A stretch of 45,482 nucleotides of DNA from Desulfomonilaceae bacterium (GTDB taxonomy: Bacteria; Desulfobacterota; Desulfomonilia; Desulfomonilales; Desulfomonilaceae). The notes under the pieces are model-generated. The model ran no database searches, was not told the origin of the DNA, and saw nothing but the letters and a program-made list of their open reading frames with translations. The first letter of the stretch is position 1. Each line of letters begins with the position of its first letter. The position numbers and the translations under genes were made by a program. Shown here in pieces: positions 27,529-37,126 of the stretch. The stretch spans positions 1 through 45,482 of the forward strand of contig JAVHLK010000037.1 in assembly GCA_031082285.1 (NCBI GenBank). Direction: 5' to 3'.

Positions 27529-28158
27529 GTGCACGCGATGATGGACTCCAGCAGGGCCAACGGCCCCGGCGTTCGGTCAGTGATCTGGCTTCAAGGGTGT
27601 ACACTGGCCTGCCCGGGGTGTTTCAACCCGAAGTCCCACTCGCACGAACCTCGCTTTCTCGTCCCCGTGGAAACCATAATCGAACGTATCACGGCAATCC
27701 GGGATACCGTGGAAGGCGTCACGATCTCGGGAGGCGAACCGTTCCAACAATCGCGAGCACTGTTGCGTCTCCTCGCCGGTCTGCGCGGCCGCACGAGTCT
27801 ATCCGTGATACTTTTTACCGGCTATTCGATGCAAGAAGCCCTATCCGTTCACCATGGAGATGAAATTATCAAGACGGTGGACGTGCTCATCGCCGGCCGT
27901 TTCGTCAGGGAACTCCGTACTGCCGCGGGGCTCCGCGGTTCTTCCAATCAGGTCGTTCACATGGAGACGGATCGTTACCGTGTGCACGACATCGAGCAGA
28001 CGCCGCCGGCCGAGATCTCCATCGACGACAGAGGAATGATTTCCGTAAGCGGCATCAGTCCGCCGCATGTCCCGGAGGCCGCCTCCGCAGCACCGGGCGG
28101 ATCGAGGGACCGTCGCACGGAATCCACGGCGGGACTTGAACCCGATGAAAGGCATTGA
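27529..28158 (+). CDS. NrdG-like radical-SAM activase (4Fe-4S single-cluster protein)
   Basis: The 209-residue product is a short radical-SAM protein. CX3CX2C is Cys24, Cys28 and Cys31 in WLQGCTLACPGCFNP, and the SAM-binding GGE is in TISGGEPFQQ. It resembles glycyl-radical-enzyme activases such as NrdG, but no glycyl radical enzyme is in the window. The start is a GTG; ATGs at 27538 and 27541 follow, and none has a strong ribosome binding site. The C-terminal 40 residues are Pro/Ala/Arg rich. It is immediately followed by a Ycf46-like ATPase gene, so the two are surely cotranscribed. Confidence 0.85.
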   Translation: MHAMMDSSRANGPGVRSVIWLQGCTLACPGCFNPKSHSHEPRFLVPVETIIERITAIRDTVEGVTISGGEPFQQSRALLRLLAGLRGRTSLSVILFTGYSMQEALSVHHGDEIIKTVDVLIAGRFVRELRTAAGLRGSSNQVVHMETDRYRVHDIEQTPPAEISIDDRGMISVSGISPPHVPEAASAAPGGSRDRRTESTAGLEPDERH

Positions 28159-28159
28159 A

Positions 28160-29659
28160 ATGGATTTTGATAAAGACTTGGAGATCTACTTCCGATCTCG
28201 TTTCACGCTGATCTGTATACCCTCGCTGGAAGAAGAATGCATCATCGATCGGATCGAGAGGGTGTGCAGGAAGACCGACCGCAGACTTTATGCCTGGGAC
28301 CACGGAGAGTTCTTCCGCGTCATTCTCGGGGAAGGCGCTCCTCCAAGTGCCAAGGACCCCCTGAGCGCACTTACGGCAATGGAGAACCTCCCGGATGATT
28401 CGGTGTTCGTCCTGCTCGATTTTCATCAGTGCTGGAACGGGCAACCGAGGGTGGTACGGAAGCTTCGCGATCTCGCTCAGAGGTTCAGATTCATCCGGAA
28501 GACCATAATCCTCACCATGCCGTTTTGGCGCGTCCCGGATGAACTCAAGGACGACGCGGTCATGTTGGAGTTCCCATCCCCCGGCATCGCAGAGTTGGAC
28601 GACATTCTATCCTCGCTCACCGCGGCTCCGGGAGTCCGGTTCAACCTCACGCCACAGGGACGGGAGAAGCTCCTGGCCGCGGCTCTGGGACTCTCGACAA
28701 ACCATGCGAGGAGAATCTTCTCCAAGGCCATTATCTCAAAGGGCGGTCTGGACGAACGGGACATCGATCTGGTCAACCGGGAAAAGAAGCAGGTGGTTCG
28801 TGAATCGGGGGCACTTGAGTTCTTCACCCCGTCGGAAACCATCGCGGACGTGGGAGGATTGGACGAGTTGAAGGAGTGGCTTCGGATGCGCGAGCGGGCG
28901 TTCACGCAGGAAGCACGGGATTACGGACTCCCCGCGCCCAAAGGTATTGCGCTTATCGGTATTCCCGGGACGGGCAAGTCGTTGACGGCCAAGATGATTG
29001 CCGACCTCTGGAGGCTCCCGTTGCTACGTTTGGACCTGGGGGCTCTTTTTGCGGGGCTGGTGGGCCAGTCGGAGGAAAACACCAGGAGAGCGCTCTCCCT
29101 GGCGGAGACCGTGGCCCCCTGTCTGCTCTGGATCGATGAGATCGAAAAGGGACTGTCCGTGGGAGGCGGCGACGCGGGGACGTCCATGCGGGTTTTCGCA
29201 AGCATTCTTTCCTGGATGCAGGAAAAGACGAGGCCGGTCTTCGTGGTCGCCACCGCCAACAACATATCACTGCTGCCGGCGGAACTCTTGCGGAGAGGTC
29301 GCGTAGACGAGATCTTCTTTCTCGATCTCCCCTCGGCCGCCGAGCGCAGGGAGATTTTCCAGGTGCATATCCGCAAGCGCAAGCGACCGGTACAAGGATA
29401 CGACCTCGACGCATTGGTCGAAGCCTCGGACGGCTATGTCGGCGCGGAAATCGAGCAGGCCGTCATTGATGCCATGTACCGCGCGTTCAGCGATCGAGGC
29501 TTGCCCGGAAGGGATTTCACCACCGGGGACATCCTTGCCGCTCTGTCCAGACAGGTTCCCATCAGCCGTTCCCAACGGGAGACCGTCCGGGATTTGAGAC
29601 AATGGCTTGCCGAGGGTCGAGCTCAATCGGCATCCATAGGGTCCGTGGGACAGGCGTAG
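28160..29659 (+). CDS. Ycf46-like AAA+ ATPase
   Basis: The product is 499 residues from the ATG at 28160, 8 bp after GAAAGG; an ATG at 28145 is also possible and would overlap the previous gene. An N-terminal alpha/beta domain (about 1-230) of the type seen in the plastid/cyanobacterial protein Ycf46 precedes one AAA+ module. Walker A is GIPGTGKS at 267-274 and Walker B is LLWIDEIEKG with Asp326/Glu327; a sensor NN follows in VATANNISLLP and RRGRVDEIF supplies the arginine finger region. The family's role is poorly known, with links to carbon-uptake regulation in cyanobacteria. Here it lies between a radical-SAM activase and a HEAT-like/WD40 protein. Confidence 0.9.
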   Translation: MDFDKDLEIYFRSRFTLICIPSLEEECIIDRIERVCRKTDRRLYAWDHGEFFRVILGEGAPPSAKDPLSALTAMENLPDDSVFVLLDFHQCWNGQPRVVRKLRDLAQRFRFIRKTIILTMPFWRVPDELKDDAVMLEFPSPGIAELDDILSSLTAAPGVRFNLTPQGREKLLAAALGLSTNHARRIFSKAIISKGGLDERDIDLVNREKKQVVRESGALEFFTPSETIADVGGLDELKEWLRMRERAFTQEARDYGLPAPKGIALIGIPGTGKSLTAKMIADLWRLPLLRLDLGALFAGLVGQSEENTRRALSLAETVAPCLLWIDEIEKGLSVGGGDAGTSMRVFASILSWMQEKTRPVFVVATANNISLLPAELLRRGRVDEIFFLDLPSAAERREIFQVHIRKRKRPVQGYDLDALVEASDGYVGAEIEQAVIDAMYRAFSDRGLPGRDFTTGDILAALSRQVPISRSQRETVRDLRQWLAEGRAQSASIGSVGQA

Positions 29660-29718
29660 GAGGCGGCAAGGGCGCCCACATATCCACGCGACCCGCGAAT
29701 AGCGTGACCAGCGGAATA

Positions 29719-29810
29719 CCGATCCCACTCAATATGCCGGTATCTTGCCGCTTCCCTTCAATACAACCGGCGAGGACGCCGGTCCTACTCAATACGCCGG
29801 GATATCGCCG
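29719..29810 (+). repeat. pair of 32-bp direct repeats
   Basis: Units at 29719-29750 and 29779-29810 agree at 26 of 32 positions by direct comparison and are spaced 60 bp apart. Shared core: ACTCAATA followed by GCCGG and ending GCCG. They lie in the 287-bp gap between the ATPase gene and the WD40 gene, just upstream of a strong promoter. They could be binding sites or decayed copies of a dispersed repeat. Confidence 0.6.
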
Positions 29811-29881
29811 ATATGACTTCCCCATCGGGACCATGCCGTGCAAGGGGTCCCATCCCGAGCAGGCATCAGGACAAATCACGG

Positions 29882-29911
29882 TTGGCATCTTCTCAGACAT
29901 CCGCGTATAAT
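29882..29911 (+). promoter_or_regulatory. strong sigma-70 promoter before the HEAT-like/WD40 gene
   Basis: TTGGCA at 29882-29887 and a perfect TATAAT at 29906-29911 are separated by 18 bp. Transcription would begin near 29918, about 29 nt before the ATG. This would let the third gene of the cluster be made independently of the radical-SAM and ATPase genes. Confidence 0.65.
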
Positions 29912-29946
29912 GGGCATCTCAACAAAAGCTCTTTGGTTCGAGCCCA

Positions 29947-32502
29947 ATGACTTGCAGTCAACAGCACCCGATCCCCTCACCCATCGAGTTGGAGCAATGG
30001 GCTCTGGATTGTTCCCCCGCCGCACTGCGCGCCTTGGCGGAGATACTGAACGGCAAAGGCGAGAAAGCCCTCCGGGATGCCCTCGTCGAGACACTGAAGG
30101 AACTTGCCGAGAGAGGATCCGTCACTCCCCTGTACGAGCTGTGGTGCATCACCCGGGAGCCTCGTCTGACGGCATTGCTGACCGAACGGGGATACGTCCC
30201 CGGCTTCGCGTCCCACATGAAGGTATTCCGGTGTTTGGAATCCGGAGACCTGGACACGCTCGTTCACGGCACTGCCGATCTTGTGCCGCCCCTCGTCAAG
30301 GCATTGGAAAATCACGACGAAGTCCTCCGGGAAAGGGCATTCGACTGCCTCGGGCGCCTCCGGGACGAGGACGCCTTGGATACGCTGTGTGCGCTGTGGG
30401 CGCATCGACGGGCCGACCGTCTTCGGAAGTTGATCGAACGCGGGAAAATCGTGGCAAGGAGGCCCCCGGCAGTGATGGTGCTCTCAGCCCTTGCATGCGG
30501 CCGAACGGACGTCATAAGGCGTGCCGGCGCAGACGTCGTCCAACCGCTCATTGACGCATGTTCCGATGAGGACGAAATCCTCGCTCAACGGGCACGAGAC
30601 TGTCTGCCGCGTCTCGAAGACCGGGAGGCCGTCGACACATTCGCCGACATCTGGGCTCACAACAGGTCCGAACTGCTCGACCCTGCAATTACGGAGGGGG
30701 GGTACGTTGCCTCAAAGCCTGCGATAGTCAGAGTCCTGTCGGCATTGAAGAACGACAGATTGGAGATCGTCACGGATGACGGGCCGACATACGCGTACTC
30801 TCTGATCCTGGCGCTGGAGGACACCGATCCTGTCGTGGTTCAACGGGCCGAGACCGCCATTGACGCCCTGGCACCCGACAAGGATTTCCAGGATGCTCTC
30901 TGCCGGGTGGTTATCGAACACGGCCTCACCAGGGCACGGGATATTGCGTTGAGCAGAGGATGTAAACCTTTCGAAGGCCGATTCCGGGCACTGTTCTACT
31001 TTCTCACGGAACAGTGGGACGAGTACGAGAGCCTGGATTTCGACATGAGCATTATGACCGAGTTTTACGAGCACGGCGGAAAGGATCTACGCTCGCGCAT
31101 TGCGGCAACGGCCCGTCGGGCCGGTCGTCTCGAACTGGTGGAACTGGTTGCGGGAGTGAGGCATCGGCGCCGCATGGGCGAGATGACGATCCGTGAGTGG
31201 GAGGTAACTCTCGGAATTGTTGACGACCGCCGGGACTGGTCGACATTGTGGCGACTGGCACAGACCGCGCCTGCGGTGTGGTCCGTTCGAGCGCTCAGGC
31301 GGCTGGATGAAGTTGCATGGCTACCCGAGAGACGGGAAGATTGGGACGGATTCGACAGACTCCGCACCCTTGCCCTTCACTGTGTGAGTGAAGCACCCAT
31401 CCTCGGCGTGGTCGACGAACCGTTCGCTGCATTCACCGCTCACGGTCGTAGAGTATCCAGGCTGATCGTCAGTTCATACTTTGAGAGTGTGCTGGCCAGC
31501 GCCGGTTGGGACGGCACGGTCAGGCTTTGGGCAATCTCGGACGGAACGCTTGTGAACAAGTGGGCGGCTCATCGGCATCCCGTCACCGCGCTGGCAACCA
31601 ACCCGGACGGCTCAATGCTGGCAAGCGGCTGCGGGGCGGAAGACCGGGTGGTGCTCTGGACAACTCAAGACGGTGAACCTTCCAAGGTGTTGACCGGACA
31701 CGTGAAGGGCGTTGCATGCCTCGCCATGAGCCCCGACGGACGACTGCTTGCGGCCGGATGCTATGACGGGACGTGCCGCTTGTGGCGGATGCGTGACGGA
31801 ACCCTCCTCACGACTCTTGGGGCCGACACGCGGTCCGTTCGGTCCGCAGTCTTTAGTCCGGATGGAACGGTATTGGCCACCGGGGGAGAGGACGCGGCCG
31901 TCAAGCTTTGGAGCGTTCCACGCGGAGAGCTGCTCGCAGTACTGCGAGGCCACTCAATGACGGTGCGGTCTCTCGTGTTCACTCCCGACGGAGCCGTGAT
32001 CGCCGGCGGAAGTTCGGACAACGACGTCATACTCTGGAATTCGGGTGACGGGACAATGGTCCGGAAACTCACGGGCCACTCCAACGTTGTGACGTCCCTG
32101 GCGATAAGCAATGACGGTCGGGTATTGGCCTCGGCCGGATGGGACCGCTCGGTACGGCTCTGGGTAATGCCCGAGGGAACTCCTTGGGGGATCCTTGAAG
32201 GTCACTCCGGTCCGGTCACCTGCCTCACGACGGATCCGGAAAGCCGTATTCTGGTGAGCGGAAGCCACGATTGCTCGGTCATGATGTGGAATTTCCAATC
32301 GGGTATCTTCCGTAGGCCCACGACGAGAAGAGACATGGACCGACTCGAATCGTCCACACACAAACCCGCGAATCAAGACGAACAGCATTGGCTTGACTTC
32401 CTTATCGCTCAGATGAAGTGGCGCCGCCGTTTTGACATTGAGATCGACGCGGCCCCCGCCAGAATTGAGATCGGTCGGTACGACATAGAGATACAAGGAT
32501 GA
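29947..32502 (+). CDS. large HEAT-like/WD40 repeat protein
   Basis: The 851-residue scaffold has two repeat regions. Residues about 1-400 are helical HEAT-like repeats (for example RERAFDCLGRLRDEDALDTL and AQRARDCLPRLEDREAVDTF). Residues 493-786 are seven WD40 blades, each near 41 residues and ending in VRLW, VVLW, CRLW, VKLW, VILW, VRLW or VMMW, a complete propeller. A tail of about 65 residues closes with WRRRFDIEI and IEIGRYDIEIQ, an alternating beta-like pattern. There is no signal peptide or enzyme motif, so it probably assembles partners in the cytoplasm, most likely the preceding ATPase and radical-SAM protein. The ribosome binding site is weak. Confidence 0.9.
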   Translation: MTCSQQHPIPSPIELEQWALDCSPAALRALAEILNGKGEKALRDALVETLKELAERGSVTPLYELWCITREPRLTALLTERGYVPGFASHMKVFRCLESGDLDTLVHGTADLVPPLVKALENHDEVLRERAFDCLGRLRDEDALDTLCALWAHRRADRLRKLIERGKIVARRPPAVMVLSALACGRTDVIRRAGADVVQPLIDACSDEDEILAQRARDCLPRLEDREAVDTFADIWAHNRSELLDPAITEGGYVASKPAIVRVLSALKNDRLEIVTDDGPTYAYSLILALEDTDPVVVQRAETAIDALAPDKDFQDALCRVVIEHGLTRARDIALSRGCKPFEGRFRALFYFLTEQWDEYESLDFDMSIMTEFYEHGGKDLRSRIAATARRAGRLELVELVAGVRHRRRMGEMTIREWEVTLGIVDDRRDWSTLWRLAQTAPAVWSVRALRRLDEVAWLPERREDWDGFDRLRTLALHCVSEAPILGVVDEPFAAFTAHGRRVSRLIVSSYFESVLASAGWDGTVRLWAISDGTLVNKWAAHRHPVTALATNPDGSMLASGCGAEDRVVLWTTQDGEPSKVLTGHVKGVACLAMSPDGRLLAAGCYDGTCRLWRMRDGTLLTTLGADTRSVRSAVFSPDGTVLATGGEDAAVKLWSVPRGELLAVLRGHSMTVRSLVFTPDGAVIAGGSSDNDVILWNSGDGTMVRKLTGHSNVVTSLAISNDGRVLASAGWDRSVRLWVMPEGTPWGILEGHSGPVTCLTTDPESRILVSGSHDCSVMMWNFQSGIFRRPTTRRDMDRLESSTHKPANQDEQHWLDFLIAQMKWRRRFDIEIDAAPARIEIGRYDIEIQG

Positions 32503-32649: not shown

Positions 32650-33081
32650 CTAACGCTTCGGGCCCTTCACGAACGACACCAGCTTCCGCCACAGAATGGC
32701 CGTGCCAATAGCCGCTTTGATGAAGAACGTGCCCACGTCGTTGCCTGCAACCAGGTGAGCATGGAGGTGAAAGACTACCTGCCCCCCTCCACGATTCACA
32801 TTGATGAACAGTCGATACCCCGACTCCGCGACTCCAAAGTCTTTGGCAATCTTTTGCGCCGCTTGTCCGATACGGCACATCAAAGTGTCGTCCTGGGCAA
32901 CGTCGTTGAGCGTGGGAATGTGGGTTTTCGGTACGATAAGGATGTGGATGGGCGATGTGGGATTCGCGTCCCAAAAGGCCATGGTCAGGTCGTCTTCGTA
33001 GACCTTACGAGCAGGCAGTTTTCCTTGGATGATCTTGCAGAAAATGCAATCGCTTGAGTAATCGGTCATGTGGTTATTCAC
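32650..33081 (-). CDS. HIT-family hydrolase, copy 2 of a tandem pair
   Basis: The 143-residue HIT protein (Hint type) has the histidine triad His105, His107, His109 in GGGQVVFHLHAHL. An N-terminal CxxC (Cys12, Cys15) with a later His suits a zinc site. It should hydrolyse nucleoside phosphoramidates or dinucleotides. The GTG start overlaps the stop of the upstream HIT gene by 4 bp (GTGA), indicating translational coupling. It is a paralogue of that gene, with a longer, basic C terminus (LWRKLVSFVKGPKR). Confidence 0.88.
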   Translation of the reverse strand: MNNHMTDYSSDCIFCKIIQGKLPARKVYEDDLTMAFWDANPTSPIHILIVPKTHIPTLNDVAQDDTLMCRIGQAAQKIAKDFGVAESGYRLFINVNRGGGQVVFHLHAHLVAGNDVGTFFIKAAIGTAILWRKLVSFVKGPKR

Positions 33082-33431
33082 GATTCCGGCCGCCTGTCCG
33101 GCTCGGGTCTATTCTTGGAGATGAGGTGGACGTGGAGGTGAAAGATCACCTGCCCGCCCCCACGATTCACATTGATGAGAAATCGATAACCGCTTTGAGC
33201 CACTCCGAACATGCCGGCGATCTTCGAGGCTGCAAGTCCGCAGTGAGAGATAATGTCGCTGTCCTGCGGTACGTCGTTAAGCGTGGGGATGTGTTCACGA
33301 GGAACGATAAGAATGTGAAGAGGAGCGGCGGGATTCGCATCCCAGAAAGCGACTACTCGATCGTCCTCATAGACGAGGTCCGCGGGCGCCTTCCCGTCCG
33401 CGATCCTGCAGAATACGCAATCATCGCGCAT
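33078..33431 (-). CDS. HIT-family hydrolase, copy 1 of a tandem pair
   Basis: This 117-residue Hint-type protein has the standard length. Cys5 and Cys8 (CVFC) form half of a zinc site, and the triad is His98, His100, His102 in GGGQVIFHLHVHLI. It shares the blocks FWDANP, PLHILIVP, HIPTLNDV and INVNRGGGQV with the following HIT gene, so the pair arose by tandem duplication. It starts 18 bp after the membrane-anchored protein gene, so the three form one operon. Confidence 0.92.
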   Translation of the reverse strand: MRDDCVFCRIADGKAPADLVYEDDRVVAFWDANPAAPLHILIVPREHIPTLNDVPQDSDIISHCGLAASKIAGMFGVAQSGYRFLINVNRGGGQVIFHLHVHLISKNRPEPDRRPES

Positions 33432-36415: not shown

Positions 36416-36589
36416 ACCGGCGAATCGTCAGCCTGGGAGAGAAGCACCCGTCCCGAATTGTGCGTCATGATCGGCCCGGCCGTCCCGTGACTTGCGGGAA
36501 TCGGCCGGCAGGGACGGAAGTGCGCCTTGACGGTTCACGGGAAACCTCGCGTCGGTTCTGAGACCCGTCGCCCAACACGTCCCCGCCCC

Positions 36590-37126
36590 ATGGTCGGGAC
36601 ACAGGAGACAGCCTTGGAAGCAAAGGTTCATCGCGCCTCCGAATCCCTGGACGATGCTCGTCGACGATTTGTGGACCGGACCATGCGCCGGCACGGATAT
36701 GAGGCGCACGCGCTGATTGAAACGCTGCATTCCGTGCAGGAGCATTTCGGATTCCTCGACACGGACAGTCTCAGATACGTAGCCAAGTCGCTACATGTTC
36801 CCCTGAGCCGGGTGTACGCGGTGGCGACCTTCTACCACTATTTTTCACTGCAACCGCCGGGCGAACACACGTGTGTGGTGTGCAAGGGCACCGCCTGCTA
36901 CATAGGAGGCGCTTCGGACATCCTCAAGGGTATCGAAGAATCCCTGGGAATCGGCCCCGGTAACACGACTGAGGACGGACTGGTTTCAATTGTCACCGCC
37001 CGATGCTTGGGAGCATGCGGCCTGGCACCGGCCGTTGTTTTTGACGGAGAAGTCCGCGGAAAGATGACCCCGGCCGCGGTATTGGATACCATACAGAGGT
37101 GGGCCGACCATGACGCTGACGTTTGA
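36590..37126 (+). CDS. hoxE: HoxE, [2Fe-2S] diaphorase subunit of bidirectional hydrogenase
   Basis: This protein is NuoE-like, with the [2Fe-2S] ligands in a thioredoxin-like domain: TCVVCKGTAC and TARCLGACG (CX4C...CX3C). It contains the helical HxxVQEHFGFLD block. From the ATG at 36590 it is 178 residues. A TTG at 36614 has a better ribosome binding site (AGGAGA) and would give 170, close to the usual HoxE length. It overlaps hoxF by 17 bp. HoxE sits in the diaphorase module of the NAD-reducing hydrogenase. Confidence 0.92.
   Translation: MVGTQETALEAKVHRASESLDDARRRFVDRTMRRHGYEAHALIETLHSVQEHFGFLDTDSLRYVAKSLHVPLSRVYAVATFYHYFSLQPPGEHTCVVCKGTACYIGGASDILKGIEESLGIGPGNTTEDGLVSIVTARCLGACGLAPAVVFDGEVRGKMTPAAVLDTIQRWADHDADV

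Follow-up and report, generated by a model that had tools for sequence, protein, structure and literature searches.

A conserved bacterial gene module linking an NrdG-like radical-SAM protein, a Ycf46-type AAA+ ATPase and the DUF1257–DUF2997 pair

Ycf46 and Ycf35 of cyanobacteria and red-algal plastids are among the described proteins closest to those studied here. Ycf35 is the DUF1257 protein, and in cyanobacteria the arrangement of DUF2997, DUF1257 and ferredoxin genes has been termed cluster g (PMC4284462). In the red-algal plastids of freshwater lineages, ycf34, ycf35, ycf46 and pbsA tend to be lost together, so that they co-vary with habitat (PMC5940233). In Synechocystis, the operon slr0373-slr0374(ycf46)-slr0376 is reported from earlier work to respond to high light, to oxidative stress and to shortage of iron, sulphur or nitrogen; EcaB activity is reduced and CO2 use altered in a mutant of ycf46 (PMC7496141, citing others). 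Here, we analysed a stretch of 45,482 nucleotides from a Desulfomonilaceae bacterium (contig JAVHLK010000037.1; the whole stretch is referred to as the window), in which genes for an NrdG-like radical S-adenosylmethionine (SAM) protein, a Ycf46-type AAA+ ATPase and a solenoid/WD40 protein follow one another. We found that this trio is part of a gene module that is widely conserved in bacteria and apparently undescribed.

Conservation of the gene grouping

The features of the trio in the window are as follows.

27529–28158, plus strand: NrdG-like minimal radical-SAM protein, 209 aa (GTG start; open reading frame (ORF) and profile matches)
28160–29659, plus strand: Ycf46-type AAA+ ATPase, 499 aa (ORF; ATG at 28160 backed by homologues)
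28958–28981, plus strand: Walker A motif GIPGTGKS, residues 267–274 of the AAA protein (sequence; invariant positions in alignments)
29882–29911, plus strand: sigma-70-like promoter match TTGGCA-N18-TATAAT, 5' of the third gene (11/12; consensus match only)
29947–32502, plus strand: alpha-solenoid (residues 12–478) and seven-blade WD40 beta-propeller (residues 494–782), 851 aa (ORF, Pfam and AlphaFold model)

Gene neighbourhoods were surveyed at 83 loci chosen by radical-SAM similarity alone, made up of 80 loci and three further same-phylum loci. Retrieval needed an alignment of four radical-SAM sequences, a single-protein query having matched nothing in the genome contigs, and six-frame translations of the surroundings within 10 kb were scanned with a profile for each of the other families. 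An AAA gene lay within this distance of the radical-SAM gene at 49 of the 83 loci, against about 1% expected by chance for an AAA of this type. DUF2997 was present at 52 loci, DUF1257 at 48, an Hsp70-like gene at 44 and a homologue of the third gene at 21. According to the record titles, the loci spanned about eleven phyla and included Verrucomicrobia, Chloroflexi, Cyanobacteria (Obscuribacterales), Planctomycetes, Actinomycetota, Alphaproteobacteria, Bacillota, several deltaproteobacterial groups, Nitrospirota, Acidobacteria and Spirochaetes, along with one archaeal metagenome-assembled genome that may reflect a binning error.

The exact order radical-SAM–AAA–solenoid was found at five loci (L044, L045, L052, L055 and L113, the last with a weak solenoid match) from at least four phyla; outside the window genome it occurred in Verrucomicrobia, Obscuribacterales and Actinomycetota. 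A sequence-only reading of this DNA had proposed that the three genes form a system and had held that the grouping would be chance if no conserved association existed in unrelated genomes; since trio and module are conserved across phyla, that outcome was not observed, and the association of the module genes is firm. Chance neighbourhood, in whose favour one could cite the promoter-like site of the third gene's own and the splitting of the module in the window genome, is refuted by the neighbourhood data and retains a negligible probability.

While the three genes do belong together, the trio proved to be only part of the system, whose other members are DUF1257, DUF2997, an Hsp70-like protein and, frequently, a protein resembling GrpE. 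The commonest gene order was AAA-DUF1257-DUF2997-radical-SAM-Hsp70, and a complete operon AAA-HEAT-GrpE-Hsp70-DUF1257-DUF2997-radical-SAM was found in Chloroflexota. DUF2997 usually lay directly 5' of the radical-SAM gene with DUF1257 just before it, and it is to these two, not to the WD40 protein, that the radical-SAM gene is most tightly linked. In the window genome, for which genome-wide statements rest on searches across its contigs, the module is split, with Hsp70-DUF1257-DUF2997 on contig C111. Similar splits were found in two genomes in which the radical-SAM locus had looked isolated: in Obscuribacterales, where HEAT-DUF1257-DUF2997-AAA stands on a contig other than that of the radical-SAM locus, and in an armatimonadete, where DUF1257/DUF2997 do so. 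PF11211, PF06868, HSP70 and GrpE were confirmed by Pfam in representative loci, and Hsp70, GrpE and AAA+ were encoded together in L044, L055, L069, L072, L080 and L186. In deltaproteobacterial relatives a helical N-terminal part is fused to Hsp70, and GrpE fusions were likewise confirmed by Pfam.

DUF2997 and DUF1257 co-occurred in the same 9 of 99 relatives, a tenth DUF2997 match being weak and below the cut-off. In the six of these nine genomes whose pair has no adjoining radical-SAM gene (and no radical-SAM-linked AAA elsewhere), a Ycf46-type AAA gene adjoins the pair. The co-location of AAA, DUF1257 and DUF2997 in bacteria indicates that the Ycf35 and Ycf46 families are parts of one module there, and the joint loss of ycf35 and ycf46 from freshwater red-algal plastids (PMC5940233) points the same way independently. 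Two oxygenic cyanobacteria carried DUF2997-DUF1257 followed by a 4Fe-4S ferredoxin gene, a Calothrix genome had another DUF2997 with a GrpE-like ORF and Hsp70 after it, and a Pseudanabaena plasmid (NCBI annotation, checked with Pfam) had the order GrpE-Hsp70-DUF1257-ABC-type ATPase-hypothetical-DUF2997-AAA-WD40. The cyanobacterial and plastid Ycf46 and Ycf35 genes probably descend from the same module. The sequence-only reading knew of no named pathway for the trio, and we likewise found no description of the module (DUF1257, DUF2997, Ycf46, Ycf35 and PF13353 linked) in the open-access literature, although it may have been described elsewhere.

Proteins of the module and their layout in the window

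The radical-SAM protein of the window matched PF13353 (6.8e-31) and Radical_SAM (2.9e-8) in Pfam. It carries S-x-x-N-G-P-G-x-R at residues 8–16, CX3CX2C at C24/C28/C31 and SGGEP at residues 67–71, and thus has the CX3CX2C motif and radical-SAM core that are membership features of NrdG. NrdG was also its best family (TIGR02491, 1.7e-30), but its score of 106 bits falls below the curated equivalog cut-off of 126.1 bits; the closest solved structure was the pyruvate formate-lyase activating enzyme (PFL-AE) of E. coli. CX3CX2C and SGGEP are kept throughout the family alignment, suggesting that SAM chemistry is likely retained.

It had been pointed out that such a protein normally needs a glycyl-radical partner and that none is present. 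No glycyl-radical enzyme gene adjoins the window radical-SAM gene, but a partner is not missing, since the genomic partners of this family are the DUF1257–DUF2997 pair. The glycyl-radical enzymes of the genome are one NrdD (contig C14) and one other enzyme (contig C263), each beside a different radical-SAM gene; because both have their own neighbouring activase, the window protein is surplus to glycyl-radical enzyme activation. The best-family match and the closest structure would fit an ordinary NrdG-type activase acting in trans with unrelated neighbours, yet this explanation is very improbable, being strongly disfavoured by the sub-cut-off score, by the enzymes' own adjoining activases and by the conserved linkage to DUF2997, DUF1257 and AAA. 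DUF2997 was present at 50 of the 59 loci with the SxxNGPGxR motif and at 2 of the 24 without it (Fisher p 6e-11, which is descriptive only because the sequences are related).

A sister clade of small radical-SAM proteins has LGPG in place of NGPG (L048, L117, L121, L125 and L129). AAA ATPases, AAA_lid_6 being present in some, are also encoded close to its members, as is Hsp70 at certain loci, so the pairing of radical-SAM and AAA may have more than one origin. The radical-SAM match of genome G098 belongs to this clade, with the LGPG motif and a different neighbourhood, and was ruled out as an orthologue. That of G062 was dropped as an orthologue locus, the module of this genome standing at another locus, and that of G094, first taken as an orthologue, turned out to be a DUF-poor variant. 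On the Treponema succinifaciens plasmid pTRESU01 (L188), radical-SAM (4Fe-4S) and Ycf46-like AAA genes lie within a cluster resembling a contractile injection system (VgrG, baseplate V), which may point to a separate role for the pair.

The AAA protein matched PF00004 (5.8e-26) and comprises an unassigned N-terminal domain (residues 1–220) and an AAA domain of the classical clade (about 225–445), in which the Walker A (GIPGTGKS), Walker B (WIDE) and arginine-finger motifs are all intact by alignment. Its assignment to the Ycf46 type is supported by full-length homologues, N-terminal domain included, in two oxygenic cyanobacteria (45–47% identity over about 490 aa). Deltaproteobacterial relatives have the AAA protein fused to an M41 protease (Pfam-confirmed), and HExGH was found in 16 of 39 AAA seeds; this fusion fits a role in protein unfolding.

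The third-gene product has seven WD40 repeats in Pfam and seven blades in its AlphaFold model, as expected of a beta-propeller. The model (mean predicted local distance difference test (pLDDT) score 83.7) shows about 30 helices over residues 12–478, 28 strands over 494–782, and a short helical and disordered tail at the end. For the N-terminal half, no HEAT family stood among the 25 Pfam families listed out of 47; the helical solenoid of the model makes the earlier description of this scaffold as HEAT-like acceptable.

DUF2997 has an invariant Cys and an invariant Gly in all 53 sequences. DUF1257 begins with an invariant Met-Ser (33/33 in the alignment; e.g., L072:8726-9103); removal of the Met would leave an invariant N-terminal Ser, which is unusual in a protein of unknown function. 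DUF1257 had no convincing relative by sequence in the PDB. Its confident model (pLDDT 87.8) gave no Foldseek match at E <=0.001, and VIA-align returned KA1 and related domains at Z <=7.4, a range in which widespread folds match one another; no function was therefore assigned on the strength of these matches.

ORFs confirmed the layout proposed for the trio, with the first two genes separated by 1 base and the third following 287 bases after the second. Position 28067 is an alternative upstream start of the AAA gene, but homologues favour 28160. A promoter of its own had been claimed for the third gene; its sigma-70-like match is a consensus match, and co-transcription is also possible since, in two genomes of the same family that keep the trio order, the gap between genes 2 and 3 is 191 and 78 bases. 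The same gap in the window contains the palindromic 23-mer ACCGGCGAGGACGCCGGTCCTAC (29766–29788), a dispersed repeat with 6 genomic copies at <=2 mismatches, three of them in tandem on contig C24 (0 for the reversed control). The nearest window neighbours of the trio encode abhydrolase, PAS, HIT, HIT and PhoU proteins (Pfam). The two adjoining HIT-domain proteins (32650–33431, minus strand; 143 and 117 aa) are apparently a tandem duplication. Further on, 36527–37126 encodes a HoxE-like bidirectional hydrogenase subunit (NF005747, above the cut-off), 3' of a universal-stress-protein gene.

Proposed mechanism and alternative explanations

We propose, with a probability of roughly 45%, that the trio belongs to a conserved remodelling machine of the chaperone type, in which a radical-SAM step acts on a substrate protein. 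The AAA+ protein, as a Cdc48/FtsH-like remodeller, would act with Hsp70/GrpE to open a client held by the solenoid/propeller protein, and the DUF1257–DUF2997 pair, DUF2997 bringing its invariant Cys and Gly, may be the dedicated adaptor or substrate of the module. Using its 4Fe-4S cluster and SAM, the radical-SAM protein could then carry out a one-electron modification of the protein exposed by the machinery; its likeliest target would be the DUF2997/DUF1257 pair or its client, rather than a classical glycyl-radical enzyme. This radical-SAM part can be separated from the rest, as several genomes and the oxygenic cyanobacteria keep AAA, DUF1257 and DUF2997 (with or without Hsp70) and have no radical-SAM gene nearby.

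Several observations weigh against this proposal. Motif-bearing radical-SAM loci without the module exist (L058, in a genome without DUF2997, L075 and L078). The Cys of DUF2997 is invariant in all 12 additional members too, including those that no radical-SAM gene adjoins. Its conservation is thus not due to the radical-SAM enzyme, which weakens the idea that it is kept as the target of that enzyme. For the Hsp70-like protein, the Pfam match is confined to part of the nucleotide-binding region, and the aromatic pore-loop residue of AAA threaders seems to be Leu in the window protein (GLVG, as judged by eye in an alignment). A bolder version, an ancient 'radical chaperone' in which Ycf46 AAA+/Hsp70 remodelling would be coupled to radical-SAM modification of DUF2997 together with DUF1257/Ycf35, and of which plastid ycf35 and ycf46 would be remnants, is doubtful.

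The main rival is a regulatory complex that responds to redox state or stress. A 4Fe-4S protein (radical-SAM here, ferredoxin in cyanobacteria) would supply or sense electrons for DUF1257–DUF2997 in it, and SAM chemistry on a protein would not be central. The ferredoxin gene that follows the pair in cluster g fits such a complex, as do the invariance of the DUF2997 Cys with or without a radical-SAM gene, the co-variation of the four plastid genes with habitat in red algae, and the multi-stress response and mutant EcaB phenotype reported for Synechocystis. The stress-induced operon also lends indirect support to the stress-signalling role that the sequence-only reading had offered as one possibility. 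Against a purely redox role stands the conservation of the catalytic CX3CX2C and SGGEP motifs throughout the radical-SAM proteins, and we regard this explanation as unlikely.

We consider it quite improbable that the module serves in conflict or phage defence by means of a chaperone-type switch, as do the NTP-dependent systems described by Kaur et al. 2020. PADLOC gave 0 matches for the radical-SAM, DUF1257 and DUF2997 proteins, and the AAA protein scored 72.4 bits against an IetA cut-off of 510, short of what IetAS assignment demands (no search by name was made for the IetS partner). Around 24 chromosomal loci, the flanks shared no effector and defence families were nearly absent, and Pfam found no vWA/MoxR partner beside the window genes. 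The signs in its favour are mobile copies with defence-like neighbours, namely a Geminocystis plasmid cassette (L187) close to genes for RloB, zeta toxin, DUF4007 and PAPS reductase, the Pseudanabaena plasmid copy beside toxin-antitoxin and HsdR genes, and a SIR2 protein in L168 and near L189 (both AAA/DUF1257/DUF2997 cassettes); Hsp70/GrpE themes are also known from such systems (PMC7159879).

Significance and relation to known systems

The module unites four orphan families (Ycf46, Ycf35/DUF1257, DUF2997 and a clade of NrdG-like radical-SAM proteins) in a testable form across about eleven phyla, and offers a specific hypothesis on ycf35 and ycf46, two chloroplast genes that have long lacked an explanation. 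Furthermore, it predicts that a protein is the substrate of a radical-SAM family now likely misannotated as a ribonucleotide-reductase activase. The parts themselves are known folds and DUFs; the chaperone-type machine, if true, would be a novel form of ATP-driven chaperone machinery that includes a radical-SAM protein, and radical chemistry on a dedicated protein, if confirmed, would make it machinery of a new kind.

The radical-SAM protein resembles NrdG and PFL-AE in sequence family, CX3CX2C, the NGPG-R N-terminus and SGGEP, whereas it differs from them in its score below the NrdG cut-off, its lack of a glycyl-radical partner and its linkage to DUF1257-DUF2997-AAA. Like Hsp70-GrpE plus AAA+ systems of the DnaK-ClpB type, the module combines an Hsp70-like ATPase, a GrpE-like factor and an AAA+ protein in one operon. 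However, its AAA is of the Cdc48/FtsH class and not Hsp100, its Hsp70 match is limited to the nucleotide-binding region, and its radical-SAM and DUF partners have no counterpart in those systems. The MoxR-vWA 'FtsH ternary' systems (Kaur et al. 2020, PMC7159879) are described as having a component that combines one inactive and one active AAA domain of the FtsH type, and solenoid and propeller domains recur in them; they need MoxR and vWA and carry variable effectors, none of which was seen beside the window genes, vWA is not among the top flank families, and DUF1257 goes unmentioned in the text of that paper. The cyanobacterial and red-algal Ycf46 with Ycf35/DUF2997/ferredoxin shares the AAA, DUF1257 and DUF2997 families with the module. 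In the oxygenic cyanobacterial chromosomes examined, by contrast, the pair and the AAA gene stand apart, no radical-SAM gene was found beside the pair, and a ferredoxin gene stands next to it.

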